Part shown: positions 6,196-62,589 of the stretch, piece after piece
Position numbering within the stretch: the stretch's first letter is position 1
How the letters are laid out: each line of letters begins with the position of its first letter
NCBI GenBank assembly: GCA_025359065.1
Contig: JANYHM010000059.1
Coordinates: 62,001-126,000, forward strand
Length of the DNA: 64,000 nucleotides
Source of the DNA: Synechococcales cyanobacterium GL140_1_metabinner_5_sub
Lineage (GTDB): Bacteria; Cyanobacteriota; Cyanobacteriia; Cyanobacteriales; Chamaesiphonaceae
Direction: 5' to 3'
Translations under genes and position numbers: made by a program
Notes under the pieces: model-generated
Database searches by the model: none
Told to the model about the DNA's origin: nothing
What the model saw: the letters and a program-made list of their open reading frames with translations, nothing else

Positions 6196-8223
6196 CTAGG
6201 CAACTTCTTTCAGTAAGAAAGACCGAGTACCCACTGTATCAACGCTTTTAGCATTTTTGTAGGTGTAAGTACCTGTTGCTATGATGTCGCCAAAGTTGTT
6301 GATACTAACTGCACTGGTGAGAGTAACAGCCGCTCCGTTTACAGTCAAAGCATTGGTGACTAGAGAGTTCAGATCAGTCTGAACGCCCATACTCCAAACA
6401 TATGCTCGGTTGACACCGGAAGCAATTTGGGAGGTTCCTACCACAGTACCAAACTCGTTGATTTCGGTAGCAGAGCCAGTTTTACCGCCCAGACTGCTGA
6501 TCGAAGTATATTCACCATCCCGAATAATAAATGGTGAGCTGGTGGCAGTTGCTCCAGATCCGCTGTTGGTAGCACCAATAATACTGCCAGCATTGTTAAT
6601 GTCGATCGCCCGTGCCTGTTCATCGCCAAAGGTTCCCAATGTTTCTAGCACGTACTGACCACTAGCATTTAGTTTCCAGACCACCGCCGCATATTTTTCT
6701 TCGCCATTTAAAGCTCCATCTTGGTCTAGATAGCCCACGATAGTGCCTTGGCCGTTAATACTCTGCGCGGTGCCACCGTTACCGCCCGATTCGGCTAAAC
6801 GAGTGACGACACCATTCTCTACGTAGACTGGTCTTTCAAAGGTTTGGACAACCCCCGCAGCATCAGTTTGAGAAACAATGTTGCGGCCAGCAATTTGGTT
6901 TTGGACGTTGATGTCTAAATAATAACTTTCCTTGCCACTAATAGAATTGATTGCTAGGTCATAGCCATTTGCCCCTTTTGTCCAAACTAAAGCTCGGTCA
7001 GAAGCTAATCCTTGGGGCTGCCTTACTTCATCAGCGGTTCCGGTAATAACTCCTCGGTTGTTGATGGTGTTGAGGTTTGGGGTCAGCAGTGTGACGGTTG
7101 CACCGTTTGGAGCACCATCATCAGATGAGCCTTTCTTCACTCCGGTAGCGGGCAGAAGAGTTTGTACGCCATTTTCCCAAATAAAAGCTCCTCGCACTAC
7201 GTTGGTGGAGTTGACAACTCCAGCCGCATTGGTAGTGTTATAAGTTTCACCAGTGTTAAATCGACCGACTATTGATCCAAAGTCGTTAATTGATACAGCA
7301 TTAACTGAAGCAGCAGTTTTTGCTGTAGTTGGGTCTTGAGCTAAAGAACCTAGATCGGTGGCAGCGTAGCGAGTTAATGGCCCGCGATCAACTAGTGTCT
7401 GAGAACCAGAGGCTACCCCTTTGAGAGTCGCTAATAAATCACGACCAGATCTAACTAGAGTATCAGTACCGCTAGTTGTAAAACTCAAAGATCTACCCAG
7501 CAGACTTTCTCCTAGACGCAGTTTATCAACGGCAGCATTAAAATTATTAATGGTGACAGAGCCTTCGCCCGTTTCTAAGATTACTCGATCTTGACCGCTG
7601 CCCAAAGTAACGGTGTCTTTGCCAGTTCCAGCATTAATCAAATTTTTGCCATTGCCTGCATCAATAACGTCATCACCGGCACCGCTGAAAATTACGTCAT
7701 CGCCAGCTCCAGCAAAAATTGTATCTTTGCCCTTGCCAGTCAAAATGCGGTTGTTGCCACCACCGGCCACCACGTTATTTTTGCCATCGCCAGCATCAAT
7801 AAAGTCGTTGCCGCTTCCGCCAACTACGGTGTCATTACCAGTACCGCTGGTAATAATGTTAGTACCATCGCCAGCAACAATATTATTATCGCCATTGCCA
7901 GCTTCAATCACATCGTTGCCAGCTCCAGCAAAAATTTTATCATTGCCGCGACCGCCTAGTATAAAATTGTTGCCTTCGCCTGTAAAAACGCTGATGGCTT
8001 TGTTTCTGCTGCTGGTGCTGGCATTAGAAGCAGCTTTAAAATCGATAACATCATCACCTGCACCATAAATTAGGGGAGCAGCAGAGCCACGGCTCGATCG
8101 ATCTGAAGATCGATCTCTGGAGCCACTTTCCAGCGAGAAAATATTGCCGGTTGATCCTAATGCAGGCACTAAATCTGCCGCTAAACTGCCAAATACGTTT
8201 GGTGCAGAACTGTTGGTATCCAT
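6196..8223 (-). CDS. RTX calcium-binding repeat / HAF-repeat secreted protein
   Basis: 675 residues, ATG at 8223 with GGAG 7 nt upstream. Residues about 50-215 are haemolysin-type nonapeptide repeats (GGxGNDxI, GAGDDVI, GTGKDTV), which bind Ca2+ in a parallel beta-roll. Residues about 290-670 contain at least six HAF-type repeats (INxxGxIxG followed by AFxWxxG), the TIGR02913 extracellular repeat. There is no N-terminal signal peptide, consistent with type I secretion; the secretion signal would normally be C-terminal, yet here the RTX block is N-terminal and the HAF block C-terminal. No type I ATPase is adjacent, although a TolC-like channel is encoded at 39264. Probably a surface or secreted protein; substrate or partner unknown. 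Confidence 0.8.
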   Translation of the reverse strand: MDTNSSAPNVFGSLAADLVPALGSTGNIFSLESGSRDRSSDRSSRGSAAPLIYGAGDDVIDFKAASNASTSSRNKAISVFTGEGNNFILGGRGNDKIFAGAGNDVIEAGNGDNNIVAGDGTNIITSGTGNDTVVGGSGNDFIDAGDGKNNVVAGGGNNRILTGKGKDTIFAGAGDDVIFSGAGDDVIDAGNGKNLINAGTGKDTVTLGSGQDRVILETGEGSVTINNFNAAVDKLRLGESLLGRSLSFTTSGTDTLVRSGRDLLATLKGVASGSQTLVDRGPLTRYAATDLGSLAQDPTTAKTAASVNAVSINDFGSIVGRFNTGETYNTTNAAGVVNSTNVVRGAFIWENGVQTLLPATGVKKGSSDDGAPNGATVTLLTPNLNTINNRGVITGTADEVRQPQGLASDRALVWTKGANGYDLAINSISGKESYYLDINVQNQIAGRNIVSQTDAAGVVQTFERPVYVENGVVTRLAESGGNGGTAQSINGQGTIVGYLDQDGALNGEEKYAAVVWKLNASGQYVLETLGTFGDEQARAIDINNAGSIIGATNSGSGATATSSPFIIRDGEYTSISSLGGKTGSATEINEFGTVVGTSQIASGVNRAYVWSMGVQTDLNSLVTNALTVNGAAVTLTSAVSINNFGDIIATGTYTYKNAKSVDTVGTRSFLLKEVA

Positions 8224-8449: not shown

Positions 8450-8668
8450 TTATTTTTTTGGTAGCGGCGGCACCACCAAACTGGCACACATTTCACCGGT
8501 CGTAACGGTGCGCTGATCTGGCATCTTGCCAGCGCAATTCCAAGAGTTAAAAGATTGACCGGCAAACTGCGGGGTTTGACTAACTCGCCACATGGCGATC
8601 GGCAGCGTGACGGCAAGAATTACCCCTATTCCTGTCCAACCCCAAACTATTTTGTGCATTGTCGGCAT
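8450..8668 (-). CDS. Small single-span membrane protein
   Basis: 72 residues with AGGAG 6 nt before the ATG at 8668. One membrane helix (about 8-27) is followed by a polar tail with C44 and C61 and a basic C-terminus. It is the last of four closely packed minus-strand genes (10570 to 8450), 9 nt after the 151-residue membrane protein, so it probably belongs to the same complex. No family recognised. The two tail cysteines could form a disulphide or bind metal if the tail is periplasmic. Confidence 0.6.
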   Translation of the reverse strand: MPTMHKIVWGWTGIGVILAVTLPIAMWRVSQTPQFAGQSFNSWNCAGKMPDQRTVTTGEMCASLVVPPLPKK

Positions 8669-8677
8669 AGCTAGCTC

Positions 8678-9133
8678 CTACTGTAGTGGTAAATATGGAA
8701 AAGCTGGATGCCAAGACATGGCAGCAGCCAATGTGTACAGGCCAAACAACCAAAAGAACATAGTGCTGGGCTTCACCTGACGATTTTTAAGTAATGGATA
8801 CAAAATCATTAGGCTCAGCAGCCAGCCAATCAACATGGCAGTTTCTTTGCCAGCATAGCTGCCAATGTTGCCCCACATGGGGTCAGGATTTACTGCCCCC
8901 GGAATCCAGCTTCCCAGGGTTTTTACCGTGCTTTCAAAACTTTTAGAGGTGTCTGAGATGTGATGAACTACCATCATTGTGACAGCTCCAACCCCGCCAC
9001 TAATTAATAGTGCTGCTGCCGAACCAGAAGTATCAGGCGGATTTTTGGAGCCATTCTTAATAAAACCAGGAAAATTGCGCAACCCAGTCCATAGTGATTG
9101 GTAGAAGGGTTTAGCGCTAGCAGAATTTCTCAT
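8678..9133 (-). CDS. Uncharacterised membrane protein with His pair
   Basis: 151 residues, AAGG upstream of ATG at 9133. Three hydrophobic segments: about 40-58 (ending VVHH, H57/H58), 97-113 and 124-140 (ending near H142). The soluble loop 60-95 is likely extracytoplasmic. Membrane-embedded histidines at segment ends would fit haem or metal ligation but I do not recognise the family. It lies 26 nt downstream of the 209-residue membrane protein and 9 nt upstream of the 72-residue one; the three probably act together. Confidence 0.6.
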   Translation of the reverse strand: MRNSASAKPFYQSLWTGLRNFPGFIKNGSKNPPDTSGSAAALLISGGVGAVTMMVVHHISDTSKSFESTVKTLGSWIPGAVNPDPMWGNIGSYAGKETAMLIGWLLSLMILYPLLKNRQVKPSTMFFWLFGLYTLAAAMSWHPAFPYLPLQ

Positions 9134-9159
9134 TGTTAACCTTGATAGTTATTTAAAAT

Positions 9160-9789
9160 TTATAGTGCATGAACTTTAGCAATGCCCAGACCAGTCACAA
9201 AGCCCCCCATTCCAAAAAACATCATTCCCATTAGCGCTACGCAGGTAGCTGTCAAAACAGGCCGGTTTTTCTTTTCTAAAATACTGTCGCCATAGCTCCA
9301 CAAAATCCAGGCACAGGCCACACTCAAAGGGAGAGTGAATAAAACGCTGAATTCGTGATATTCCATAAACACATACTGCACCAGCGGCGAGTTGGTTTTT
9401 AGCCAAGCCCTAGCACCGCCATAGCTGGCATCTGCCCGATAGCGCATGTAGGCAAAATTACCACTGGCAATACCGAGAAAGGTAATTATGCTCGACCAAA
9501 AAGCTAAAGTCCGCACTGGTGGCAAGGCTTTGGCTGAGCCGCGCAGAAGAGGAAAAGCCAAGTGTCCGGTGTAAGCGACCACAATCGTGGTCAACATCGA
9601 AGCGCTGCCGTGTAAAAAGCCGATCGATCTTTGCCATGGACTGGGGTGAATGAGGTTTACAAGAGGCAAAAACATAAACATGCCTGCCGAGAGAATAGCC
9701 AAACCATAAACGCTGACTGTAGCGATATCTAACTGCCGGGGAAAGGTTTCTTCCGCTATCGGCTTAAATTCAGAATCAGTAACTTGCAT
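9160..9789 (-). CDS. Uncharacterised five-span membrane protein, His-rich helices
   Basis: 209 residues with about five membrane helices (roughly 22-48, 56-82, 92-115, 138-165, 176-203). Histidines sit in or at the ends of helices: H48, H60, H76, H145 and H207. Such paired His positions are what one sees in b-type haem membrane proteins, but no known cytochrome signature is present and this remains inference. The start at 9789 follows the hydrolase stop by one base, so translation is probably coupled. It diverges from the FTR1/multicopper-oxidase gene set, suggesting a part in metal or electron transfer at the membrane. Confidence 0.6.
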   Translation of the reverse strand: MQVTDSEFKPIAEETFPRQLDIATVSVYGLAILSAGMFMFLPLVNLIHPSPWQRSIGFLHGSASMLTTIVVAYTGHLAFPLLRGSAKALPPVRTLAFWSSIITFLGIASGNFAYMRYRADASYGGARAWLKTNSPLVQYVFMEYHEFSVLFTLPLSVACAWILWSYGDSILEKKNRPVLTATCVALMGMMFFGMGGFVTGLGIAKVHAL

Positions 9790-9790
9790 G

Positions 9791-10570
9791 TTATCTTCTT
9801 GCCTCCAAAGGTTGAGGTAACAAACAAGGCAGACTCTGGGAGGTGATCTTTCTCCAAAAATCTCGTATTTTTACGCCCAACGTCTCGGCGTGCTGATGAT
9901 GGAAAAAGTGACCGCCGGTAGGCTGATGCCAAAACTGATCTCCATTTTTGAGATAGTACAGCCATTCCGAAAAGATGTTGCCCATCAGTACCGGATCATC
10001 TACGGCTGCGCAAACCAGCAAGGGTTGGGCAATAGCACCTTGAACAAAAAATTCATCTTTTTTTAGCAGTGAGGTCTTGGAGGGAGCTTCTAATAAGTCA
10101 CGATCTAGCCTTTCGGCTAGGTGCTCAACGTAGCGCAGACAAGGAATACCCGAAATCCAACCTGCCACTAACTTCAGCACCGTATCTCGCTGACAATAAA
10201 TTATCGACAGTTGCTGATAGTAATAAGTTTGCCAGGTAATGCTGGGCTGAGCCGCCACACTAATTAACACCACCGAAGCTACGCGGCCAGGGTAGCAGCG
10301 AGCATAATTGAGCGCGAGTACCCCGCCCAATCCATGACCAATAATATGTAAGGGTCGATCGCTGGTTTGGATAAATTCATGAAGCAATTCCAAGGCAGCC
10401 TCTAAAGAACCAGGCTCATCAGGAGTCTGGGAATATTCCCAGTATTTCAGCGGAAACTCTTGGTCGAGTACACCCAATATGCGGCGATGAAAGCATTGCA
10501 AGCTAGGGCTGGTACTAATCCACAAAAACTGTCGGTCGCACAATGTCTCAGAAGGAGATTCACAAATCAT
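9791..10570 (-). CDS. Alpha/beta-fold hydrolase
   Basis: 259 residues from ATG at 10570; a TTG at 10594 would add 8. The sequence holds the classical nucleophile-elbow region 'HIIGHGLGGVLALNYA', but the central residue is His-Gly in G-H-G-L-G instead of the usual G-x-S-x-G: the position of the catalytic Ser is taken by His. Later 'PLLVCAAVDDPVL' and 'GGHFFHHQH' match the acid and His positions of the family. Either it uses other chemistry or it is a non-catalytic member. It heads a tight four-gene set with three membrane proteins and diverges from the iron-uptake genes. Confidence 0.7.
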   Translation of the reverse strand: MICESPSETLCDRQFLWISTSPSLQCFHRRILGVLDQEFPLKYWEYSQTPDEPGSLEAALELLHEFIQTSDRPLHIIGHGLGGVLALNYARCYPGRVASVVLISVAAQPSITWQTYYYQQLSIIYCQRDTVLKLVAGWISGIPCLRYVEHLAERLDRDLLEAPSKTSLLKKDEFFVQGAIAQPLLVCAAVDDPVLMGNIFSEWLYYLKNGDQFWHQPTGGHFFHHQHAETLGVKIRDFWRKITSQSLPCLLPQPLEARR

Positions 10571-10594
10571 AAGAATAAACGGGATGAAGGACAA

Positions 10595-10981
10595 AGTTTA
10601 AATGGCCATGTGTTGGCTAGAAGGGCTAACTGTGAGCCATGCCATCTTGAAGCTTATTGATAATCTCTAGCATCAAAGGATTAAGGGAATCCTAACATCT
10701 TATTGAAAATAAGTCTCATTAAAATTTAGAAATTAGATAGTTTTATATTATCAAATTAACTATTTAAACTCTGTTTTGCTGATATATCAAAGGAATAAAT
10801 ATGAGGGTATGGCAAGACTGATAGTGCCTATAAACTTTGTCTGTCAACAGTTATAGGCTTATGTATCTCGCTGTTCATCTTTGTCGATTGTGCAATCTGA
10901 AACACAAAATATCTCATTGACTCTCTGTCGCTAAAAAACAAATAAGTATTCTTCTCAATTAAATGTGGTAGCATCTTAGCC
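10595..10981. promoter_or_regulatory. Divergent regulatory region with candidate Fur box
   Basis: 387 nt between the hydrolase and porin genes, the only place for promoters of both sets. GAAAATAAGTCTCATTAAA at 10705-10723 matches the 19-bp Fur consensus at 12 of 19 positions by my count, a moderate match. A second element, GCCTATAA (10826-10833) with TTATAGGC (10851-10858), is an 8-bp inverted repeat with an 17-nt spacer nearer the porin gene. Both are inferred from sequence only. Confidence 0.4.
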
Positions 10982-12322
10982 ATGGTCAAAGACCAAAACT
11001 TACAAAAACTGTCAGTAATTTTTAGCATGTTTAAGTCAATATCTGCTCTAATCGTTACCGCAAGCTGCACTGCGGCGATTTTGCTTCTAGAAATGGGTGG
11101 TCGATCGCCTGCTGTGCAAGCGAAGCCATCGTCGGTTGAGGAAGCTCAATCTAGCCTAGAAGTATCAGCAACCAATTTCTTAGTCTCTGACAATCAGCTT
11201 TTTTCCAGTCAGCCAGCGGCTCTTGCAGCTCAGCCAGAGGGAAAACCAGCAGAAGCTCCTGCTAACCAGTTTTCGCTGACGACTAAGCTGCAAGGACAGG
11301 TGATTTTTGGTCTAACCAGTGGATTATCTGGCGATATTAGTAGAAATGCTGCCCTTGGTCAGCGGAGCCGCCTAGAGCTGGTGACTGGTTTGGGTAACGG
11401 TACTCTCACTACCAGGCTACAAATTGATGGCATGGGCACACCAAACTCTACTGTGCCAGCAGGCATAATTGATACTCCAGAAGGAGGGTCTTCTTTTGGG
11501 GTAAGCAAACCAAGCAGTCAGGTGAATCTTGACCTGCTGAAGTATGAGATGCCGATCGGAGCTAATACTCAACTTGTAGTAGCGGCTAATGCCGCTGGCG
11601 CTGATGATTTCACTGATTCTATCAACCCCTACTTTGATGGTGATGGTGCTAGTGGTTCAATATCGCGCTTTGGCAACCGGCCATCTATTTATTATTTGGT
11701 GTCTGGGGCTGGAGCTGGTATTCGGCACAAGTTTAGCCCCACAGTTGAAGGTAGCTTAGGGTATTTAACCAGCAATGCTAGCAGTCCTGCGTTGGGTAGT
11801 GGATTAGGTGGAGGTAGCTATGGGGCGATCGCTCAAATTACGTTGAACCCCAACGAAAATACCAAATTAGGGCTAACTTATGTAAATGCTCGTGATACAA
11901 CGCCCGGTACCGGTAGCACCAACGCTAATTCTAGTGGTTCCAATAGTATGTTTGGAGTACAGGGGTCATTTAAGGTAAGCCCCAAGCTCGCTTTGGGTGG
12001 CTGGGTTGGTTACAACAAAAACAGTGACGTAGCCGGAGATAAAGATATTTTAAATTGGGCAGTTACTGCGGCGTTTCCGGACTTGGGTGCGCCCGGTAAT
12101 TTGGGTGGACTGCTAGTTGGGCAAGAGCCTCGGGTTACAGGAGCAACTGGTACGGCTTTGACAGATACTGGTTCTTCATTGCATTTAGAAGGATTTTATC
12201 AAGTCAGGCTAAACGATAACCTCAGTATTACTCCTGGCTTAATTTATCTCACAGCCCCCGATCATAATAGTGCCAATGGCGGAGCCTTAATTGGCACAGT
12301 CAGAACCACCTTTAGTTTTTAA
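10982..12322 (+). CDS. Outer-membrane beta-barrel porin of the cyanobacterial iron-uptake-porin type, lacking an SLH domain
   Basis: 446 residues. An N-terminal signal region (hydrophobic stretch after residue 16, MFKSISALIVT..., which may be the true start at 11027) is followed by a Pro/Ala/Glu-rich linker and then alternating strands typical of the C-terminal barrel of cyanobacterial OprB/SomA-like 'iron uptake' porins (RSRLELVTGLGNGTLTTRL, NVDLLKYEM-like strands), ending in Phe (TTFSF). The usual N-terminal SLH domain that anchors these porins to peptidoglycan is absent, so it is shorter than the typical 500-600 residues. As first gene of the ferritin/oxidase/FTR1 set it is the likely outer-membrane entry step for iron. 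Confidence 0.72.
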   Translation: MVKDQNLQKLSVIFSMFKSISALIVTASCTAAILLLEMGGRSPAVQAKPSSVEEAQSSLEVSATNFLVSDNQLFSSQPAALAAQPEGKPAEAPANQFSLTTKLQGQVIFGLTSGLSGDISRNAALGQRSRLELVTGLGNGTLTTRLQIDGMGTPNSTVPAGIIDTPEGGSSFGVSKPSSQVNLDLLKYEMPIGANTQLVVAANAAGADDFTDSINPYFDGDGASGSISRFGNRPSIYYLVSGAGAGIRHKFSPTVEGSLGYLTSNASSPALGSGLGGGSYGAIAQITLNPNENTKLGLTYVNARDTTPGTGSTNANSSGSNSMFGVQGSFKVSPKLALGGWVGYNKNSDVAGDKDILNWAVTAAFPDLGAPGNLGGLLVGQEPRVTGATGTALTDTGSSLHLEGFYQVRLNDNLSITPGLIYLTAPDHNSANGGALIGTVRTTFSF

Positions 12323-12396
12323 TTGCTGAAATCTGTCTTTAAATCTGTCTTTGGACGTAAGCAGCTCCACGTTAATAAATCACTGAGTAAATTTAT

Positions 12397-13455
12397 ATGA
12401 AAAGACTGTATAAAAGAATAGCCTATGCGCTGATGGCTTTGTTGTTTGGCTTCATTGTCGCCTGTAACAATCCCACAGCCGATAAACCTCCTGAAAAGCC
12501 AGCGGCTGAAAGTAATTTATCAACAGATAAAAAACCGGACGATAAGTCAGCGACAGAAGCTAGTCCATCTGCTCATAGCGGCGGACACAGTATGGGTAAG
12601 AAAATTAATATCAACGATGCTATTCTTTCGGAATTAGATAAGCTGGAAGGTAAGCTGGGTATTCCATCGCTCTCCAACAAAATTCAGTCGAGTCGGCCAT
12701 ACACCAAAACTGAAGATTTAGTGAGCAAAAAGGTAATTGACCAGGCACAATTTGATCAGATCAAAGATATGGTGACGATTGAAGAGGTCAAATTAGTTGG
12801 TGAGGCTAAAGATATCGATTATATGATCAAGCTAGGTCTAATGAAAGGACATCTGATAGTTGCCAAAGAATTGATCGATTTGAAGAAAATAGAGCAGGCC
12901 GAACCGCATATTGGCCACCCAGTGGAAGAAATTTATGCTGACGTAGAAGAACAGCTCAATGAGCGTAAAGTAAAAGAATTTAAAACTCCATTGATTGCTT
13001 TACATGACCAAGTGAAAGCTGGTGGAAAAGACCTTGCTAAATTAGGTAATGACTTTAAAACTTCGATGAAGTCGATTGAAGATGCGATTGCTGGCTTGCC
13101 TGCTACTCAAAGAACTTCGCCCAAATTTGCACTGCAAGTAATTGCTGGCCTATTAGACAGCGCTAACTCTGAGTACACTGCTGCAATCGCCAATGGTAAA
13201 ATTGCTCAAGCCGTAGAATATCAAGATTCACGGGGCTTTGTGGTTTATAGTCAAGAACTATTTAAAGCCATTCAACCAGAGCTAATTAAAACCAATGCCT
13301 CTATTGCTACCAGCATTGCTAAATCTTTAGCCGATGTGGCTAAGGCTTGGCCAGCACCGATCCCCCCGGCTGCACCAGTACTACCTACTAGTGAAGTCTC
13401 TAAATTAGTGAAGTCGATCGAAAGCGAATCTGCTAAAATTACGCAACCTGCCTAG
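12397..13455 (+). CDS. Lipoprotein with helix-hairpin-helix domain, iron-cluster associated
   Basis: 352 residues. Lipobox IVAC with Cys23, then a low-complexity Pro/Lys/Glu linker and a His-containing segment (HSGGHSMG, about 60-67). Residues 68-130 read as two helix-hairpin-helix units of the ComEA kind (INDAILSELDKL, then YTKTEDLVSKKVI). The C-terminal 200 residues are all-helical, with GHLIV and HIGHPVEEIY motifs that recall the His/Glu-bearing helical domain of EfeO/imelysin proteins, though I cannot prove that link. Placed between porin and ferritin-like genes, a periplasmic iron-binding or scaffold role is reasonable. No SD is obvious. Confidence 0.6.
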   Translation: MKRLYKRIAYALMALLFGFIVACNNPTADKPPEKPAAESNLSTDKKPDDKSATEASPSAHSGGHSMGKKININDAILSELDKLEGKLGIPSLSNKIQSSRPYTKTEDLVSKKVIDQAQFDQIKDMVTIEEVKLVGEAKDIDYMIKLGLMKGHLIVAKELIDLKKIEQAEPHIGHPVEEIYADVEEQLNERKVKEFKTPLIALHDQVKAGGKDLAKLGNDFKTSMKSIEDAIAGLPATQRTSPKFALQVIAGLLDSANSEYTAAIANGKIAQAVEYQDSRGFVVYSQELFKAIQPELIKTNASIATSIAKSLADVAKAWPAPIPPAAPVLPTSEVSKLVKSIESESAKITQPA

Positions 13456-13479
13456 TTCATGCTCTCATCCTTATTAATA

Positions 13480-13914
13480 ATGAAAGATCTAAATTCTGAA
13501 ACCACTATCGACACCCTACGCACCATTATGGAGTTTGAGTTAGCGGGAGTAGTCCGCTATACCCATTATTCTTTGATGGTGACAGGGCCAAATCGGATTC
13601 CAATTGTAGAATTTTTTAAAGCTCAGGCGATCGAGTCACTGACTCATGCTCAACAAGTCGGTGAAATCCTCACTGGCTTGGAGGGTCATCCTTCCTTGAG
13701 CATTGCCCCCATGGAAGAAACTTATAAGCATGCAGTCAAAGATATTTTGGAAGAAAGCCTTTCTCACGAAAAGAAGGCTTTAGGTCTCTATAAGCAGCTA
13801 TTAGATATCGTAGAAGATTCTAGCGTCTACTTAGAAGAGTTTGCCAGAACTATGATTGGTACTGAAGAGCTACATAACATTGAAATCAAAAAAATGCTGA
13901 GAGATTTTAGCTAA
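13480..13914 (+). CDS. Ferritin-like (bacterioferritin-type) protein
   Basis: 144 residues from ATG at 13480; the frame allows a start 7 codons earlier at 13459. Four-helix ferritin-like fold with the expected dinuclear-iron ligands: E18/E20 in helix 1, E52 with H56 (ESLTHAQ) in helix 2, E91/E92 in helix 3 and E130 with H132 in helix 4. This is the conserved cyanobacterial bacterioferritin-like family, a little shorter than classical Bfr. It sits immediately upstream of the ferredoxin-like gene and within the FTR1 set, so storage or handling of newly imported iron is likely. Confidence 0.8.
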   Translation: MKDLNSETTIDTLRTIMEFELAGVVRYTHYSLMVTGPNRIPIVEFFKAQAIESLTHAQQVGEILTGLEGHPSLSIAPMEETYKHAVKDILEESLSHEKKALGLYKQLLDIVEDSSVYLEEFARTMIGTEELHNIEIKKMLRDFS

Positions 13915-13920
13915 ACAATT

Positions 13921-14487
13921 ATGTTAAAAAAACTAGAAGGGAGTTTTTTGCGGTGGCAGCGGTCTGAATCTGGCAAGCTAAACAGCATTCAGATTCAGAC
14001 CAGCACAATTATTCAGTCAGTACACGTAAATAAAGATCTGCGCGTGCTGCTACATGATCTACTTATTCCTAATGTTACTATTTCGTTACAGGTCAAAGTA
14101 AAAAAAAGGCGAATGACGGCTAAATTTGTGGTTTTAACGCCTCGCTGTGATCTCACAATTGACCGCAAAATGATTCCTAAGCCAATTGAAGTTAAAGTTT
14201 GTAGCAGTAAACATTGCTGCAAGAATGGCAGCAAAGATATTTGTAAATCTTTAGAGCAGTTGCAATTAGATAGTAACATCGGTGTTCAAATCAGTAAGGT
14301 TGGCTGTATGGGCAACTGTAAAAATGCTCCAGCAATTAAAATTGATGGTCATAAGCATCAGAAGCTCTCACCGGCATCTGCCGTCGCTTTGGTTAAAAAA
14401 ATGTGGTGCAAACTCCAGCCTCATCCACGTAATGACTCTGAAAAAGAATTGCCTATGAGACAAATAGCACCGACGACTGGTTTCTAA
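13921..14487 (+). CDS. (2Fe-2S) ferredoxin domain protein, thioredoxin-like
   Basis: 188 residues. The C-terminal half (about 90-165) is a thioredoxin-like [2Fe-2S] ferredoxin: C94 and C99 (C-x4-C) plus C129 and C133 (C-x3-C, VGCMGNCKNAP) are the cluster ligands; C100 and C108 are extra. The N-terminal 85 residues form a basic beta-rich region seen in cyanobacterial proteins of this kind. It starts 6 nt after the ferritin-like stop and ends 3 nt before the multicopper oxidase, so the genes are co-transcribed. An electron carrier for iron release or reduction at the ferritin or membrane step is a fair inference. Confidence 0.75.
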   Translation: MLKKLEGSFLRWQRSESGKLNSIQIQTSTIIQSVHVNKDLRVLLHDLLIPNVTISLQVKVKKRRMTAKFVVLTPRCDLTIDRKMIPKPIEVKVCSSKHCCKNGSKDICKSLEQLQLDSNIGVQISKVGCMGNCKNAPAIKIDGHKHQKLSPASAVALVKKMWCKLQPHPRNDSEKELPMRQIAPTTGF

Positions 14488-14490
14488 TTT

Positions 14491-15474
14491 ATGTCTAATG
14501 ACGCGACTTCAAATTCATGGTCAAGGCGACAGATTCTACAGTGGGGCGGAGCGGTAGGGCTAAGCTTTGCAGCTAGTGCCGTAGCAATACGGGCTTTTAA
14601 TCGTCAGTCAGTGATTACTCCACCACCCATGCGAGACCTGGATGCAGAGAGTCCTGGCTTTTTGCCCGTAAAGTTTCTGCGCAGCTTTGATTATGGCAAA
14701 GTGGTCAAAGAAAATGGTCGCACGGTGAGAGAGTTTACTCTCAATGCTAAAACCACTCCGGTACAGCTTGATAAGGCAAACAGCTTTATTACCTGGAATC
14801 TCAATGGTCAGGTGCCTGCACCTACTCTACGGGCAACCCAGGGCGATCGAATTCGGATTGCGTTTTACAACCAGGCCGGACATGCTCACTCCCTGCATTT
14901 TCATGGCACTCACCCATCCAACATGGATGGCATTAAGCCCGTCAAACAAAGCAAAGTATTTATTTATGAGTTCGATGCTGAGCCTTACGGGGTGCATCCT
15001 TATCATTGTCATATTGAACCGGTCACTCGCCATATCGGCAAAGGACTATATGGAATGTTAATTGTTGATCCCCCTCAGCCGCGACCGCTCGCTGATGAAA
15101 TGGTACTGATTATGGGAGCCTATGATCTGGATGAAAATCGCCAAAATGAGCTATATGCCTTTAATGGTTTGCCCCATTATTATATGCACCATCCAATTCC
15201 AATTAAAAAAGATCGATTGGTACGCTTATATGTGCAAAATATGATTGAATTCGATGCCGCAGCTTCTTTTCATTTACATGCCAATATGTTTCAGGTATAT
15301 CCTACCGGACGAACAATCCATCCTGCTTTTGAAACTGACGTAATTACTATGGGGCCAGCCGAACGACATATTTTAGAGTTTAGCTATAAATATCCTGGCC
15401 AGTATATGTTTCATCCTCACCAAGACTATATGGCCTCTGCTGGTTGTATGGGAATATTTGATGTGATTTCTTAG
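14491..15474 (+). CDS. Two-domain multicopper oxidase, Tat-exported (probable ferroxidase)
   Basis: 327 residues. Twin-arginine signal SRRQILQWGG (11-20). Two cupredoxin domains with copper motifs: H136/H138 (LHFHGTH), H169-P-Y-H172-C173-H174, H261/H263 (HLHAN) and H308/H310 (HPHQD). In domain 1, C173, H181 and M189 complete a type 1 copper site; in domain 2 the equivalent Cys is replaced by Pro309, so only one T1 site is present, in the N-terminal domain. Such enzymes work as trimers with trinuclear centres between subunits. Its neighbour downstream is an FTR1 permease, so Fe2+ oxidation coupled to uptake is the best-supported role; a laccase or nitrite-reductase-like activity is not excluded. 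Confidence 0.85.
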   Translation: MSNDATSNSWSRRQILQWGGAVGLSFAASAVAIRAFNRQSVITPPPMRDLDAESPGFLPVKFLRSFDYGKVVKENGRTVREFTLNAKTTPVQLDKANSFITWNLNGQVPAPTLRATQGDRIRIAFYNQAGHAHSLHFHGTHPSNMDGIKPVKQSKVFIYEFDAEPYGVHPYHCHIEPVTRHIGKGLYGMLIVDPPQPRPLADEMVLIMGAYDLDENRQNELYAFNGLPHYYMHHPIPIKKDRLVRLYVQNMIEFDAAASFHLHANMFQVYPTGRTIHPAFETDVITMGPAERHILEFSYKYPGQYMFHPHQDYMASAGCMGIFDVIS

Positions 15475-15524
15475 CTGGCATTTTTCTGTTTGATAATTGT
15501 CCTTACACCTAACTACTTAATATT

Positions 15525-16478
15525 ATGGACTTACTCTCTGCCTTACCCACATTTATTCTGACTCTGCGCGAAGGAGTTGAGGCTGCCTTGGTAGTAGGAA
15601 TCGTCATGGCTTACCTAAAAAAATCAGGTCAGTCTTATTTGAAATCTTGGGTGTATTGGGCGATCGGGATAGGCATTGCCCTCAGTGCTGCTACTGGCGT
15701 AGCATTTCAGTGGATAATTCAGAATTTGGGCACAGCTAATCAGCAATATGCTAGCTCAATCGAACCAGCGATCGAAGGCTTTTTTGGCCTATTAGCAATT
15801 TTCATGCTGAGTTGGATGTTAATTTGGATGGCCAAGCACGCCAAAACTCTCAAGCAAGAAGTAGAAGGCGCAGTAGATAATGCTGTTCATGCCCAAGCCA
15901 AAAATGGCTGGCGAATATTTGGATTAGTTTTTTTTGCGATCATGCGAGAAGGCTTTGAAACCGTTCTATTTATTGCTTCTAAGCTTCAGCAAGGAGTTTT
16001 TCCAGCATTGGGAGCAGTGAGTGGAGTTGTAGCCGCAACTATTATTGGCATGTTGATGTTTAAGTGGGGCGTGCGGCTGAATATTCGCAGATTCTTTTCG
16101 ATTATGGGGATTTTACTACTTTTAATTATTGGTGGTTTAGTCGTAACTTCTTTAGCCAGATTTGATCAGGCTGTGGGGGCACTGGCTAGCTCTAGCCGAG
16201 AATCCCAGAGCATGTGTTTTTTCTATGAACGTTTTGCCAAACCGGCTGACAAAAATTGTATCTTGGGGCCGATGGTGTGGAATTTTAGTAAAGTAATGCC
16301 AGAAGAAACTTTCCCTGGCATAGTTTTTAGCTCTTTGCTGGGCTATGTGCAGCGACTATATTTAGTGCAGGCGATTGGCTATATTTTCTTTTTAGTGACA
16401 GTTGGCAGCTTGTATTTACAGCCTACCTGGCTGAAGAACCTAATTCCTAGTGGCAAGAGGTCTTTAAAGGGTGGTTAG
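15525..16478 (+). CDS. FTR1-family high-affinity iron permease
   Basis: 317 residues with about seven membrane helices. Carries the two REGxE iron-binding motifs of the FTR1/EfeU family: R15-E16-G-V-E19 near the N-terminus and R141-E142-G-F-E145 in the middle. In yeast the homologue works only with the multicopper oxidase Fet3; here the oxidase gene ends 50 nt upstream, so the pair is conserved in arrangement. Plasma-membrane location is expected. No EfeO/EfeB genes are present; the helical lipoprotein two to three genes upstream may take that place. Confidence 0.9.
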   Translation: MDLLSALPTFILTLREGVEAALVVGIVMAYLKKSGQSYLKSWVYWAIGIGIALSAATGVAFQWIIQNLGTANQQYASSIEPAIEGFFGLLAIFMLSWMLIWMAKHAKTLKQEVEGAVDNAVHAQAKNGWRIFGLVFFAIMREGFETVLFIASKLQQGVFPALGAVSGVVAATIIGMLMFKWGVRLNIRRFFSIMGILLLLIIGGLVVTSLARFDQAVGALASSSRESQSMCFFYERFAKPADKNCILGPMVWNFSKVMPEETFPGIVFSSLLGYVQRLYLVQAIGYIFFLVTVGSLYLQPTWLKNLIPSGKRSLKGG

Positions 16479-16605: not shown

Positions 16606-18510
16606 TTACATTAATATCTCGATCTGGGATGCCCGATCAATTTTAATATCTAACTTACCATCAGAATTTTTTATAGGCTCTACATCAACTATCTTTATTT
16701 GTTTGTCTTTGAGATTTAGTAAGCTTCCTCCCCCTGGAATTTGATTAATTAAGCCTAAAGGCAATGTTACTCGCCCTGTTTGACGATCACTAATATAACC
16801 TTGTTCGTCAGGTTCTGAAATTTTTCGATCTAGCCATTTTGCCCTTAGATTAGAATGATTTAGCTGGTTTGTGATGAATAATCCCATTAATTCATTAGGT
16901 ACTAATATTGCTCCAGTAGAAATTGGTAGTTTCCATCTTTGTGCTGCATCCCTGAAGAAGTCAATGATTGCCTTTAATTGTTTGATTAAATCATCAGTTA
17001 AAATTATTTTTGGTTTTCTACCACTAAGAGAAGAAAAATTTGTTACGGCAGTTCTTCGATCAGATCCATTAATCAAAATTTGTGGACAAGCTTTTCCAAT
17101 CTCTTTGGTATTACGAAAACTTTCACTTAGTGTTCGGATGGTAGGTCTACAATCGATTTCTTGTTGAACAAAATTCCAGCAAAAAACTTTCTCATAAAGA
17201 GATTGAGAAGTATCAGCCGTCAAAAATAATCCTGATGGTTCAACCAATTTAACTAGTAATCTGAGTGCAGTAGGTGATAAATCTTGTGCTTCATCAATAA
17301 TTACGGCATTGTAAGGCTTCTTGCTTAAATTACTGACCTTCTCTAAAGCTTGTCTTCTTGACTGTTCGATGGTTGTATAACCAGAATTTTGTAATAAATT
17401 TTTCCATTCCTCATAGATGTCCCAAACTGCTCTGCGCAAATCTCGACGAAATGGCTCTCCTGCCGCAATTTTACTTTTTTCTTTATACTCGTCTGAATTG
17501 ACAATCCCTTTGGACTCAATCGTTTTGACAATTTCATTTAAAATAGATGATTCGCCTAGTTGCTTCAATTTATTTTGAATATTTGCATCAAACTGGTTAA
17601 TTCGCAATATCGATTGTAAACAAAGCCGAGATATTTCTTCAGTAGCTGTTGTCTTTCTACTTGCTTCGTTGCAATCAGCAACAATTTCATCAACTTTGCA
17701 GACCTTAACATCAAGTTGATCGAGTGAATCTGGCAGCAATTTTTCTAGCAGTTGTTTAAAATAATCAACTAATGTTTCTGTATGAGCAGTCAGTAAAATA
17801 TTTCTAACCCCTGACTCGACAAGCTTTTTTACTCGATAGATCGCTAAAATTGATTTCCCCGTACCTGGACCACCTTTAACTAAAATTGCATTATCACAAT
17901 CGAGATCTAGTATTCTTTTTTGCTCATCAGATAGGAACAGTAAAAATTTATCCAATTCTTCCGAATTACCTAAATTACCTGGGCTGACAACCTCATAATA
18001 AGTTTCTTCACTAACATCTTCTATCTTACGATCTAAGAGATCGATAATATTTAATATACACTCATCTGGTACTGGATGTTTTGAACAAAGTAGGCCATCT
18101 TCATTTTTTACTGAAAGAAGATAGTTGTGGTATTGTTCTGGAATTTTCCATTCACAGAGTTGCTCTTTAGATAGCAAATTTTGTGAGGTTAGATTGTCGC
18201 TTTCCTCTTGAGATGTCTCTTCTGATATCGATAAAACAGGCAGTTGATTGAGAAGTGACATATCTCTATATGTATGTCCATCTCGCCGGCGCAGATCGAG
18301 TAAGCATAAACAACCTGAATCGTCATATGTGTAAAAAAGTCGATACTTAATGGTTATACGTGTTCGCCAGAACCCGCCGCCTCTAATTCTGCACGCATCG
18401 CGTGGATGACGCTCTTCGATGTAAGCAATGACTTCAGGTAATTTTGTCCTGATTTCTGGTGACAACCATGACGAAGCCCTCAAAAATCGTTTAGTGGCTT
18501 TAATGCTCAT
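16606..18510 (-). CDS. RelE-like/UvrD-like superfamily 1 NTPase fusion, apparently lacking domain 2
   Basis: 634 residues from ATG at 18510 (GAGG just upstream; a GTG at 18549 is weaker). Residues 1-85 resemble a RelE/ParE-type toxin fold (IEERHPRDACRI, TRITIKYRLFYTYDD, LLDLRRRDGHTY). Residues 205-475 form an SF1 helicase 1A/1B core: Walker A GGPGTGKS (213-220), Walker B DEAQD (406-410), motif III-like TADTSQSLYE and motif IV LSESFRNTKEIG. Motifs V and VI (the KGLEF-type and VAxTR-type segments of domain 2) are not seen; the C-terminal 60 residues are short strands ending RASQIEILM. It may be an ATPase without translocase activity, or a truncated gene. Convergent with the FTR1 gene. Confidence 0.7.
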   Translation of the reverse strand: MSIKATKRFLRASSWLSPEIRTKLPEVIAYIEERHPRDACRIRGGGFWRTRITIKYRLFYTYDDSGCLCLLDLRRRDGHTYRDMSLLNQLPVLSISEETSQEESDNLTSQNLLSKEQLCEWKIPEQYHNYLLSVKNEDGLLCSKHPVPDECILNIIDLLDRKIEDVSEETYYEVVSPGNLGNSEELDKFLLFLSDEQKRILDLDCDNAILVKGGPGTGKSILAIYRVKKLVESGVRNILLTAHTETLVDYFKQLLEKLLPDSLDQLDVKVCKVDEIVADCNEASRKTTATEEISRLCLQSILRINQFDANIQNKLKQLGESSILNEIVKTIESKGIVNSDEYKEKSKIAAGEPFRRDLRRAVWDIYEEWKNLLQNSGYTTIEQSRRQALEKVSNLSKKPYNAVIIDEAQDLSPTALRLLVKLVEPSGLFLTADTSQSLYEKVFCWNFVQQEIDCRPTIRTLSESFRNTKEIGKACPQILINGSDRRTAVTNFSSLSGRKPKIILTDDLIKQLKAIIDFFRDAAQRWKLPISTGAILVPNELMGLFITNQLNHSNLRAKWLDRKISEPDEQGYISDRQTGRVTLPLGLINQIPGGGSLLNLKDKQIKIVDVEPIKNSDGKLDIKIDRASQIEILM

Positions 18511-18890
18511 ATATCCTCTACCTTGCCATTCTGTTGTGGTCAATAACACGATGTTACGATATACTCAACTTTTATCCATGAATCAAGATAAAATTAAGTG
18601 AAAATGAACCAGCCTGCATTATACATGAAGATACTAGCAAATCACCAAAAACTTTACCAGAAAAGCAATCTTGCGATTTGCCAGAAAAACAGTCTGTTTC
18701 TTGAGATGTCCTCGCGATCGGGACTTGGGCGATTTGAGAATAATGCAGGTTAGTTCGGTGGCAAATATTACTCAAGGGATCGGCTTCCTCACTGTCAATT
18801 ACCTGTCAGGCTTACCCTCGGCAACGATTTCCTTATTTACGATTGCTGCGTTAATCTCGATCGCTTATTCGTATTGAATTATTCCTAATT
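18511..18890. other. Intergenic region upstream of the IS30 remnant
   Basis: 380 nt between the NTPase gene start and the transposase remnant. It contains a short frame on the plus strand (18671-18877) that shows no family resemblance and lacks a convincing ribosome-binding site. An imperfect repeat around CCAGAAAA (18657 and 18679 areas) is visible. Probably decayed sequence at an insertion boundary. Confidence 0.4.
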
Positions 18891-30817: not shown

Positions 30818-31584
30818 AAAACGTTATTTCTAGCTGAGATTGATTTTAAAGTGTTCAGTTCTTCTGAATTATACTGACGGAGCCAGTTCCATACTAGCAC
30901 TGTCAACAGACCTTCACTGATGGCCAGTGGCACTTGAGTAACAGCAAAAATACCACCGAATTTAACAAACGAAGTTAATATACTTGGTGAAGGAAATGCC
31001 AAAGAGAGCTGCATGGCCGTTACTACATAAGTAACTAAATCACCCAAAGCAGCAGCACAGAAGATTGCCACTCCATAGCTATTACTAGTTCGCAGCACAA
31101 TGTGATAAATCCAATAGGCCGTGAAAGGACCAGCAACCGCCATCGAAATAGCATTGGCTCCCAAAGTAGTCAACCCACCATGAGCCAACAGCAGCGCCTG
31201 GAATACTAGCACCATTGAACCCAATACCGACATAACGCTGGGGCCAAACAATACCGCACCCAATCCGGTGCCGGTAGGATGGGAGCAGCTCCCGGTTACA
31301 GAAGGGATTTTTAGAGCGGAGAGGACAAAGGCAAAAGCGCCAGATAAAGCCAATAGCAGCTTGAGATCGGGGTTCTCTTTGGTGATCTTGACCAGTGATC
31401 GCAAACCCCAGGCAAAGAACGGAATAAAAACTGCCCACCAAAACAAAGCCCAAACCGGTGGCAAATAACCTTCCATAATGTGCATGGCCTGAGCTGGAGC
31501 TGCACCACCCAAAACCAGATAAGCACTTAAGCCAACCATAGCGAGTAAGCTTAGAGCCTTTCGCCGTATATTATTTTTACGCAT
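30814..31584 (-). CDS. cbiM: Cobalt ECF transporter substrate-binding subunit CbiM
   Basis: 256 residues from ATG at 31584. The reading frame runs upstream to 31743 but that stretch is the cobalamin riboswitch, so the downstream start is right. An N-terminal segment (1-33, ending AQA) looks like a cleavable signal peptide and is followed by M34-H35-I-M-E-G-Y-L-P-P, the CbiM/NikM N-terminal motif in which the first residues chelate the metal. The 'SHPTGTG' motif in the third helix is the second metal-binding element. Seven or eight membrane helices follow. Confidence 0.9.
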
Positions 31585-31604
31585 CCGTACCTCGCAGAAG
31601 CAAA

Positions 31605-31735
31605 TTAACTCTTTTCGATCGGGTGTTCTGACTGAAGAAGCCACTGCTCCTATTACAGTTGCGGGACAGTGACGGATTTGCACCGTTCTTTCCCCGAGCT
31701 GACAAAAATTGTCAACCCTCACAGCATAGCCGAAA
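31605..31735 (-). ncRNA. Cobalamin riboswitch upstream of cbiMNQO
   Basis: Minus-strand sequence contains the conserved core GGTGCAAATCCGTCACTG followed by TCCCGCAACTG at about 31654-31684, and the 3' B12-box-like AGTCAGAACACCCG at about 31620-31637. This is the adenosylcobalamin-class fold. Its position about 30-150 nt before the cbiM start means cobalt import is shut when cobalamin is plentiful. Boundaries are approximate. Confidence 0.9.
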
Positions 31736-62000: not shown

Positions 62001-62589
62001 TAACGCCGTTTAATAATGTGCCGGTGCTATTGGCGTTTAAGTTGAAAGTAGTAGGCACATTGACTGGTGTTGTTAAGGCGGTGCCGCCATACTCAATAAT
62101 TTGTAGCTGGCCAACAGTACCATTTGTAACGGCGGCGGTGTTGGGAATGACAAACTGGGTGGGGTCGTTACCAATGTTGTTAATAATAAAATCGAAGTAA
62201 ACAATGTCGCCCAAATGAATTCCGGCGAAACCTTGATAAAGGCCAGGTATTAACTGGGTGCCGCTGGCATCGTTGGGATAAGATGCGGCATTACCAGGAG
62301 CATCGGTGGGCACTTGTGGTGTAATGCTAATACCTGCGACTTCGGCGACTTTCACCGTCACGATGTTGGATACAGTGGTTTCGGTAGTCGCACCAGGAAT
62401 ATCACCGTCGATGTAGCTGCCCGTGGCTTGGTTATCTATTTGAGTACCACCGATCGCAATATCTGCACTGGCCAAAACAGGCAAAGCTCTTAGACTACCT
62501 GCTGCTACCAATCCTAAAATTAAGGATAATTGTTGCAAAGAAAACAACAGATTTTTGTGGCTATTTTGACGGGCAACAGATTTCAGCAT
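59059..62589 (-). CDS. Large secreted beta-helix / SdrD-B-like surface protein
   Basis: 1176 residues. N-terminal signal-like helix (16-42). Residues about 45-290 contain DUF11-like immunoglobulin-fold units (NIVTVKVAEVAGISI; IGNDPTQFVI). Residues 295-360 are an SdrD B-like/carboxypeptidase-regulatory domain (NVFEDANYGG..., TDTNGDYNFPAVPVG). Residues about 460-900 are a right-handed parallel beta-helix (NNGVVANGIDVSG, ISENVVRNSIG, IEINAGATG). A further DUF11 unit is at the C-terminus (about 1000-1176). Probably a cell-surface or secreted structural protein. No obvious anchor at the C-terminus. Confidence 0.78.
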   Translation of the reverse strand: MLKSVARQNSHKNLLFSLQQLSLILGLVAAGSLRALPVLASADIAIGGTQIDNQATGSYIDGDIPGATTETTVSNIVTVKVAEVAGISITPQVPTDAPGNAASYPNDASGTQLIPGLYQGFAGIHLGDIVYFDFIINNIGNDPTQFVIPNTAAVTNGTVGQLQIIEYGGTALTTPVNVPTTFNLNANSTGTLLNGVSGTNNGSIPANSSIKVRVPVIVTSGTGSISVQLGDTSPAAANPASNQPYEVTGSTDIYTRDNPSPTNALTAAADHEVIGTPANGEREASAIASAPIVGQNVSGNVFEDANYGGGSGRSKTASSGTNVVSATVELYDSLGKFVRSTTTDTNGDYNFPAVPVGDFYVRVVNNTVKSNRPGGTAGLLPVQTFLTDAGVTAGTVSPVIDRVGGETPSQSDTGGSAAGAIFSPTTKQFTTAGGTAAVSGYVQSLTKVKAGTAVVSGVDFGYNFDTIVNTNNAGQGSLRQFVTNSNTLTNSGLAQVGQTAGKEVSIFMIPDGSAHAGLRATVPTQLTGNRALISLATPLTITDADTSIDGRTQTSNINNSNTLTLGSGGTVGVGGLTLASLSAPEIEITNNGVVANGIDVSGANTTVRNIAIHGFGAAGSDQGDILLRAADAIVTENAIGTTALSFAAPTNQSQSGVVISGALAANISNNLIGFTNERGILGGNSTTATNLTGLVISGNEIRKTGNGAGTTNQHGGIELFSSTAGNVSILGNLITEAGTDSGIEINAGATGTATSFLIQNNSLSSNGSGSSGFGIVLQGTGANNINGINIDKNILDANRDGITSRQNNVTISENVVRNSIGTYGIGVEDGKQGNKITKNSTYGNAGPGIDIATATTANNVTANNGLTDNTLSNKGIDYPLITATSLSGTTLDVKGYVGISPAGNATFANVTLEFFLADNSPIDQNGEVIVGDGKSKPHGEGKTYLGSCTADSLGRFGTTGNLCTITSAALTAGNYNNITATATDSSNNTSEFSAIPSTRAKLVLAKRITSITDGVTGAVTSFSNYVDDPGTTEDDAANWPNVATTVLGEINGGQAKPGDIIEYAVYYHNAGENRISSAKVCDRLNTNLVYQKDFDASHIGSGIVLKPGSNTAQYLTGTADNDQGEFATTQPIDCNLTSSTINTTSNNVVVVQAANGTTAIPGLSDGYIKFKAKVKE

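Follow-up and report, generated by a model that had tools for sequence, protein, structure and literature searches.

Iron uptake systems built around a permease of the FTR1 family are the closest described relatives of the locus presented here. Fet3p-Ftr1p of yeast and FOX1-FTR1 of Chlamydomonas resemble it in that a multicopper oxidase (MCO) with complete copper-site motifs is encoded together with an FTR1 permease carrying REXXE motifs. EfeUOB and EfeUO(M) share with it the EfeU/FTR1-family permease and the Gram-negative envelope. FtrABCD of Bordetella and P19-cFtr1 of Campylobacter likewise combine FTR1 with a periplasmic partner, and FtrABCD also has a cupredoxin and a ferredoxin-type protein. 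For Synechocystis an FTR1-dependent reduction/re-oxidation route has been published, as cited in PMC7676907 and PMC11221513; its cFTR1 (slr0964) is proposed to import the re-oxidized iron, and the passages of PMC7676907 on this step name oxygen as the oxidant and no dedicated oxidase. Here we describe a gene cassette in a stretch of 64,000 nucleotides, hereafter the window, of Synechococcales cyanobacterium GL140_1_metabinner_5_sub (positions 62,001 to 126,000 of contig JANYHM010000059.1; cyanobacterial assembly of 3.92 Mb in 121 contigs), in which FTR1 is encoded with an MCO, a lipoprotein with an HhH domain and a ferritin-like protein. We conclude that the cassette probably serves cyanobacteria for iron uptake by pairing a ferroxidase with a permease, much as Fet3-Ftr1 does in yeast. 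The sequences show gene content, conserved linkage, intact catalytic motifs, an enrichment of Fur-box-like sites at the family level and the absence of EfeB. An earlier note on this DNA had called the locus a self-contained ferroxidase/FTR1 system; a ferroxidase/FTR1 iron system is the best reading and is supported by conserved linkage, Fur-box-like sites and a near mutual exclusion with Peptidase_M75, but "self-contained" was an overstatement.

Six genes on the plus strand (10982-16478) encode a porin, the HhH lipoprotein, the ferritin-like protein, a NuoE-type [2Fe-2S] protein, the MCO and FTR1. They are all present, intact and tightly spaced, just as the earlier note had listed them. Gaps of 3-6 nucleotides (nt) between the genes from lipoprotein to MCO suggest a single transcript; the porin is separated from the lipoprotein by 74 nt, and the MCO from FTR1 by 50 nt. 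The divergent side (8678-10594, minus strand) holds a hydrolase-fold gene, which had been recognized correctly, and two membrane-protein genes, memA (8678-9133) and memB (9160-9789), where three had been counted.

The MCO has 327 amino acids, a twin-arginine translocation (Tat) signal and two cupredoxin domains. With copper-site positions assigned from motifs and not from a solved structure, the trinuclear-site histidines H136, H138, H172, H174, H261, H263, H308 and H310 are invariant in 82 of 82 aligned MCO sequences, and the type-1 copper ligands C173, H133 and H181 are conserved in the same 82. A leucine (L186) occupies the presumed axial type-1 position, as in Fet3p. In contrast to Fet3p, the window MCO has two cupredoxin domains and not three, is soluble and Tat-exported instead of membrane-anchored, and shares its gene run with a lipoprotein of bacterial kind and a ferritin-like protein. 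Its nearest solved relatives are the multicopper oxidases 3gdc and 7rab. A copper nitrite reductase was considered and rejected: the complete motif set speaks against it, since none of the four HxH motifs is missing and none varies, and 3gdc and 7rab are not nitrite reductases. We propose, from sequence, that the MCO is a ferroxidase.

FTR1 matches PF03239 (E = 1.3e-49), and its REXXE motifs (E16/E19 and E142/E145) are invariant in 57 aligned sequences. The EfeU and EfeU/Ftr1 models give 2.9e-55 and 3.4e-59 yet stay under their curated cut-offs. A cysteine pair, C231 and C245, is found in 20 of 20 other cyanobacterial FTR1 sequences checked and is conserved in Synechocystis cFTR1. Unlike the Synechocystis route, for which oxygen is named (PMC7676907), the window encodes a candidate oxidase beside its FTR1. 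Where it occurs, the MCO is a candidate enzyme for the re-oxidation of iron ahead of FTR1.

The claim that neither EfeO nor EfeB is encoded holds by sequence: the whole genome contains no EfeB-type DyP peroxidase (PF04261) and no match to Peptidase_M75 (PF09375), the family of EfeO. Where EfeUOB has the DyP peroxidase EfeB, the window has an MCO, and its lipoprotein carries an HhH domain and shows no convincing sequence relation to Peptidase_M75. Because EfeB is absent and EfeO unrecognizable by sequence, the cassette falls outside EfeUOB. It also falls outside FtrABCD, since neither the P19/FtrA domain nor the polyferredoxin FtrD found a Pfam match among the ten window proteins scanned; a full MCO stands in place of the single cupredoxin. 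Elsewhere the genome encodes FeoB and three Fur-family proteins, and it has four OprB porins and one FTR1 in all.

Co-occurrence was counted in 149 genomes of the same order, and gene neighborhoods were compared at 80 named loci from many cyanobacterial families; linkage counts are lower bounds because contig ends remove the lipoprotein or FTR1 from some loci. The MCO was detected in 77 of the 149 genomes and its close subfamily in 68. All 68 have the HhH lipoprotein (p = 6e-37, a value that, like the mutual-exclusion statistics below, takes genomes as independent and ignores shared ancestry), and a close MCO without the lipoprotein was found in none of the 149. The two genes lie within 5 kb of each other in 65 of the 68 genomes and on separate contigs in the remaining three. 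FTR1 stands within 10 kb of the MCO in 38 of the 40 MCO genomes that have FTR1 among the 58 best-scoring ones. Across the 80 loci the common order is MCO, lipoprotein, ferritin-like gene (where present) and FTR1, and these four recur jointly in different cyanobacterial families. The core of the cassette is a conserved cyanobacterial system, far beyond a chance neighborhood. Ferritin-like gene and FTR1 also form a pair in genomes that lack the MCO, so that the cassette resembles two modules joined. Three units are conserved, namely MCO-lipoprotein, ferritin-FTR1 and memB-memA, whereas the genes for porin, ferredoxin and hydrolase can be missing or are confined to particular lineages. Further iron-linked neighbors are a PKHD/PiuC-type dioxygenase and a FecB-like binding protein. 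At L041, L044, L049, L076, L086, L089 and L090 the MCO is accompanied by an HhH-less lipoprotein and a PKHD/PiuC-type dioxygenase, and FTR1 is not adjacent.

The window departs from the usual order, with lipoprotein, ferritin, ferredoxin, MCO and FTR1 following one another. Of the gene run that the earlier note proposed to look for in other cyanobacteria, the core parts recur together, but the complete run, with porin, ferredoxin and hydrolase in the window's arrangement, is shared by just one of the loci examined, L032, which is congeneric. L032 alone among the 80 loci has a close relative of the ferredoxin, and the porin recurs in about ten loci at other positions. On the FTR1 tree the cassette copies cluster (5 changes against 18 when shuffled). 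On that tree the FTR1 of the window is placed with a copy standing alone in a genome of the same family (G073) and not with that genome's cassette copy. Together with the different gene order, this grouping indicates that the same parts were apparently assembled more than once, which would fit a functional tie between them.

For regulation, the general Fur consensus, fixed in advance (the palindrome TGATAATnATTATCA, matched at 11 or more of 14 positions), was scored within 300 base pairs upstream of the MCO. Such a Fur-box-like site is present at 40 of the 80 loci compared with 4.1 in dinucleotide shuffles; six permuted palindromes reach 4-6 loci each, and background genes of the same loci attain the threshold in 7.5%. 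Upstream of memB the enrichment is weak (6 against 1.75). The enrichment across the family would fit a regulation of the cassette by iron.

The core of the lipoprotein carries the near-invariant motifs MKGH, HIGHPVEE and EYQDSRGF. Not every orthologue has the HhH domain; for many of them the match is confined to the core (about residues 138-350). The structure is predicted with confidence, the predicted local distance difference test score (pLDDT) exceeding 90 in the core. Ranks 1, 2, 4 and 6 of the Foldseek matches in the PDB are EfeO, EfeO, EfeM and Algp7, all weak (E 0.12-0.58, template modeling score about 0.3), and EfeO is not among the top 50 rows of VIA-align. Membership of the core in Peptidase_M75 was rejected: the hhalign probability reached no more than 16% when two groups of cyanobacterial M75 proteins were compared with it, and PF09375 matches, seen in 3 of 40 lipoprotein members (best E = 8e-4), were no better than those of unrelated families. 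Imelysin-like proteins have two four-helix bundles and an HxxE site, and since circular permutation is known in the superfamily (PMC3143127, PMC9174327), a permuted relation between lipoprotein and EfeO is possible. MCO and Peptidase_M75 are nearly mutually exclusive, with a single overlap in the 149 genomes (p = 5e-6, kinship ignored), and the lipoprotein overlaps with Peptidase_M75 in three (p = 2e-4, kinship ignored). The gene immediately preceding FTR1 in Deinococcus taeanensis encodes a distant homologue of the core, and in Roseovarius indicus such a homologue is encoded just upstream of an Fe2+-dependent dioxygenase. The weak fold matches, the exclusion of M75 and these neighbors suggest that the lipoprotein acts in EfeO's role. 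It is plausibly an EfeO-like iron-binding component that takes the place of EfeO, so that the earlier note, which had regarded it as an accessory, was right about the absence of EfeO by sequence but passed over a plausible counterpart. In Indioceanicola profundi (L198:5761-8001) the gene after the core homologue encodes a protein in which two CxxCH heme motifs and a C-terminal cupredoxin-like segment were seen by eye.

Among the genes of the divergent side, memA shows the conserved motifs (T)HH and WHPxFPYLPL, and memB the conserved histidines H60, H76 and H145. In the genomes searched memB is confined to cyanobacteria; it is present in 24 of the 149, and memA follows directly at almost every locus whose sequence extends far enough. 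Ten of these 24 genomes have memB no more than 8 kb away from MCO, lipoprotein or FTR1, in two of the ten (G001 and G033) adjoining FTR1 with no MCO, and at L084, L105 and L220 the cassette encloses both genes, with the MCO on one side and the lipoprotein on the other. Joint conservation of the two divergent sets, as the earlier note envisaged it, extends this far for memB-memA, but the hydrolase is not conserved. The memB model is of moderate confidence (pLDDT 79.5) and its fold was left unassigned: Foldseek and VIA-align return helical bundles of a generic kind, and the hits to cytochrome b561, NOX5, cytochrome bd and CcmF are scattered among designed proteins. For memA, a match to a cytochrome c assembly protein lay under the cut-off and was discarded. 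Because of the conserved histidines a heme-binding redox role of the pair is conceivable; perhaps memB and memA form a heme-type electron-transfer or reductase pair, a guess that is the weakest step of our proposal. Somewhat doubtful as a whole, but worth putting forward tentatively, is a broader proposal: the lipoprotein core would represent a new periplasmic iron-binding family, perhaps imelysin-like but permuted or only remotely related, which would replace EfeO and be the obligate partner of the two-domain MCO in iron oxidation; cyanobacteria would hold a further FTR1 type in addition to EfeUOB and FtrABCD, and memB-memA would be an optional membrane redox module.

Three observations concern the surroundings of memB-memA. 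In G033 (C1:5426741-5427281; L134, L136) a memB copy is interrupted by stop codons and decayed beside an intact ferritin-like gene and FTR1. A third small gene often follows memA elsewhere; at L207, L208, L212, L213, L216, L217, L222, L223, L052, L096 and L196 it encodes a protein of a family of variable length (x2) with the N-terminal pattern REMHKxVW...FAG..P...WRVS..KFKGFHVKS; the one member scanned gave no Pfam match, and x2 was not found in the window. An RTX/HAF-repeat gene adjoins memB-memA in the window and at L206, L208, L221, L222 and L223.

As we infer the order of events, iron would enter across the outer membrane via the SomB-like porin, and the HhH lipoprotein would bind Fe2+ in the periplasm. 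The Tat-exported MCO would oxidize Fe2+ with O2, and the Fe3+ would be passed to FTR1 and imported across the plasma membrane. In the cytoplasm the co-encoded ferritin-like protein may store the iron, the [2Fe-2S] protein could supply electrons for iron release or reduction inside the cell, and memB-memA would be an associated membrane module, perhaps of redox function. The cassette thereby supplies a specific and conserved candidate oxidase and an obligate, uncharacterized partner in many genera. Culturable carriers in Nostoc, Calothrix, Microcoleus and Pseudanabaena make knockouts and enzyme assays feasible. No description of the cassette was found in the open-access literature; subscription papers lay outside this search, so an earlier description is possible. 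Literature on IdiC/idiB yielded nothing relevant.

Several observations weigh against coupled ferroxidase and permease action on iron. FTR1 is present in 120 of the 149 genomes, and at least 52 of these lack a close MCO; FTR1 is thus independent of this MCO in general, and such genomes must re-oxidize iron by another route or not at all. The two Fur-like sites of 11/14 in the window's own divergent region are not significant by themselves (p 0.11). One might ask whether the locus is an island of an iron-starvation regulon, whose genes are co-regulated with no physical or catalytic coupling of MCO and FTR1. The many genomes with ferritin-FTR1 and no MCO would agree with this, as would several loci where a PiuC-type dioxygenase accompanies MCO-lipoprotein and FTR1 is not adjacent, the frequent location of memB-memA elsewhere, and the grouping of the window's FTR1 with a stand-alone copy from a genome of the same family and not with the cassette copy of that genome. 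However, the spacing of MCO and FTR1 in 38 of 40 genomes is tighter than co-regulation requires, and cassette FTR1s cluster on the tree; we regard a mere regulon island as improbable. A role in protection instead of uptake, with the periplasmic MCO detoxifying Fe2+ or Cu+ in the manner of CueO/CopA, FTR1 and ferritin storing the surplus and metal stress explaining the grouping, is unlikely as well. The NCBIfam matches of the MCO to CopA and CueO, weak as they are, point in that direction, and so do the two-component systems encoded beside the MCO in Microcoleus and related genera and the plasmid-borne MCO relatives among metal-resistance genes. Yet the Fur-box-like enrichment suits induction by low iron, no copper pump or copper chaperone was seen to recur as a neighbor of the cyanobacterial cassette, and the FTR1 proteins of characterized systems are importers.

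The nearest non-cyanobacterial MCO relatives adjoin ZIP transporters, which makes manganese or another metal possible, and many Nostocales encode a CbiM(N)QO transporter of the cobalt/nickel type divergently to the cassette; both facts also count against iron. The plasmid relatives (L201, L202, L203, L204 and L205; 40-47% identity; Bacillota, Actinomycetota and Deinococcota) are immediately followed by the gene of a metal transporter, which either belongs to the ZIP family or is unnamed, and TatA/TatC genes are present in some cases. This oxidase family has thus been paired repeatedly with a metal transporter, not always FTR1. Manganese, cobalt or nickel might be handled by the same oxidase logic: at about 17 loci CbiM(N)QO genes adjoin the cassette or run divergently from it, and in other phyla the neighbors of the MCO gene encode a metal transporter and a regulator that depends on metal. 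We hold this to be very improbable: FTR1, the ferritin-like, PiuC-type and FecB-like neighbors and the Fur-box-like sites indicate iron, and Cbi genes are absent from the window and from most loci outside Nostocales.

The CbiM(N)QO genes, mostly in Nostocales, stand beside the MCO or beside memB-memA/ferritin/FTR1, often in divergent orientation, at L060, L063, L073, L075, L077, L079, L082, L084, L093, L097, L101, L102, L105, L108, L109, L111, L196 and L217. They may point to a link with metals besides iron, or may belong to an energy-coupling factor (ECF) transporter of unassigned specificity.

Features of the cassette and its flanks (window coordinates).
Feature	Position	Strand	Remarks
RTX/HAF-repeat protein	6196-8223	-	next gene left of memA
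memA, small membrane protein	8678-9133	-	directly downstream of memB; no Pfam family above cut-off
memB, predicted helical membrane protein	9160-9789	-	conserved His; no Pfam family above cut-off
alpha/beta-hydrolase-fold protein	9791-10594	-	close relative in L032 only, among 80 loci
Fur-box-like site TGATAATCTCTAGCA	10658-10672	.	11/14, divergent intergenic region; p about 0.11 alone
Fur-box-like site TGAAAATAAGTCTCA	10704-10718	.	11/14; aligned position in L032, TGATAATAAGTTGCA, also 11/14
OprB-family outer-membrane porin, SomB-like	10982-12322	+	NCBIfam name "iron uptake porin"
HhH lipoprotein	12397-13455	+	lipobox C23; HhH about 68-126; helical core about 138-350
bacterioferritin/ferritin-like protein	13459-13914	+	about 75-85% identity, very conserved
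thioredoxin-like [2Fe-2S] protein, NuoE type	13921-14487	+	no export signal seen
Tat-exported two-domain MCO, proposed ferroxidase	14491-15474	+	four HxH motifs, type-1 copper ligands
FTR1/EfeU-family iron permease	15525-16478	+	both REXXE motifs; sole FTR1 gene of the genome

Directly after FTR1, on the opposite strand, a UvrD/HelD-like helicase is encoded (16606-18549, minus strand), the N-terminus of which looks RelE-like by eye. Further along, at 31572-31720 on the minus strand, the window holds a cobalamin (adenosylcobalamin, AdoCbl) riboswitch that scores just above the Rfam gathering threshold.

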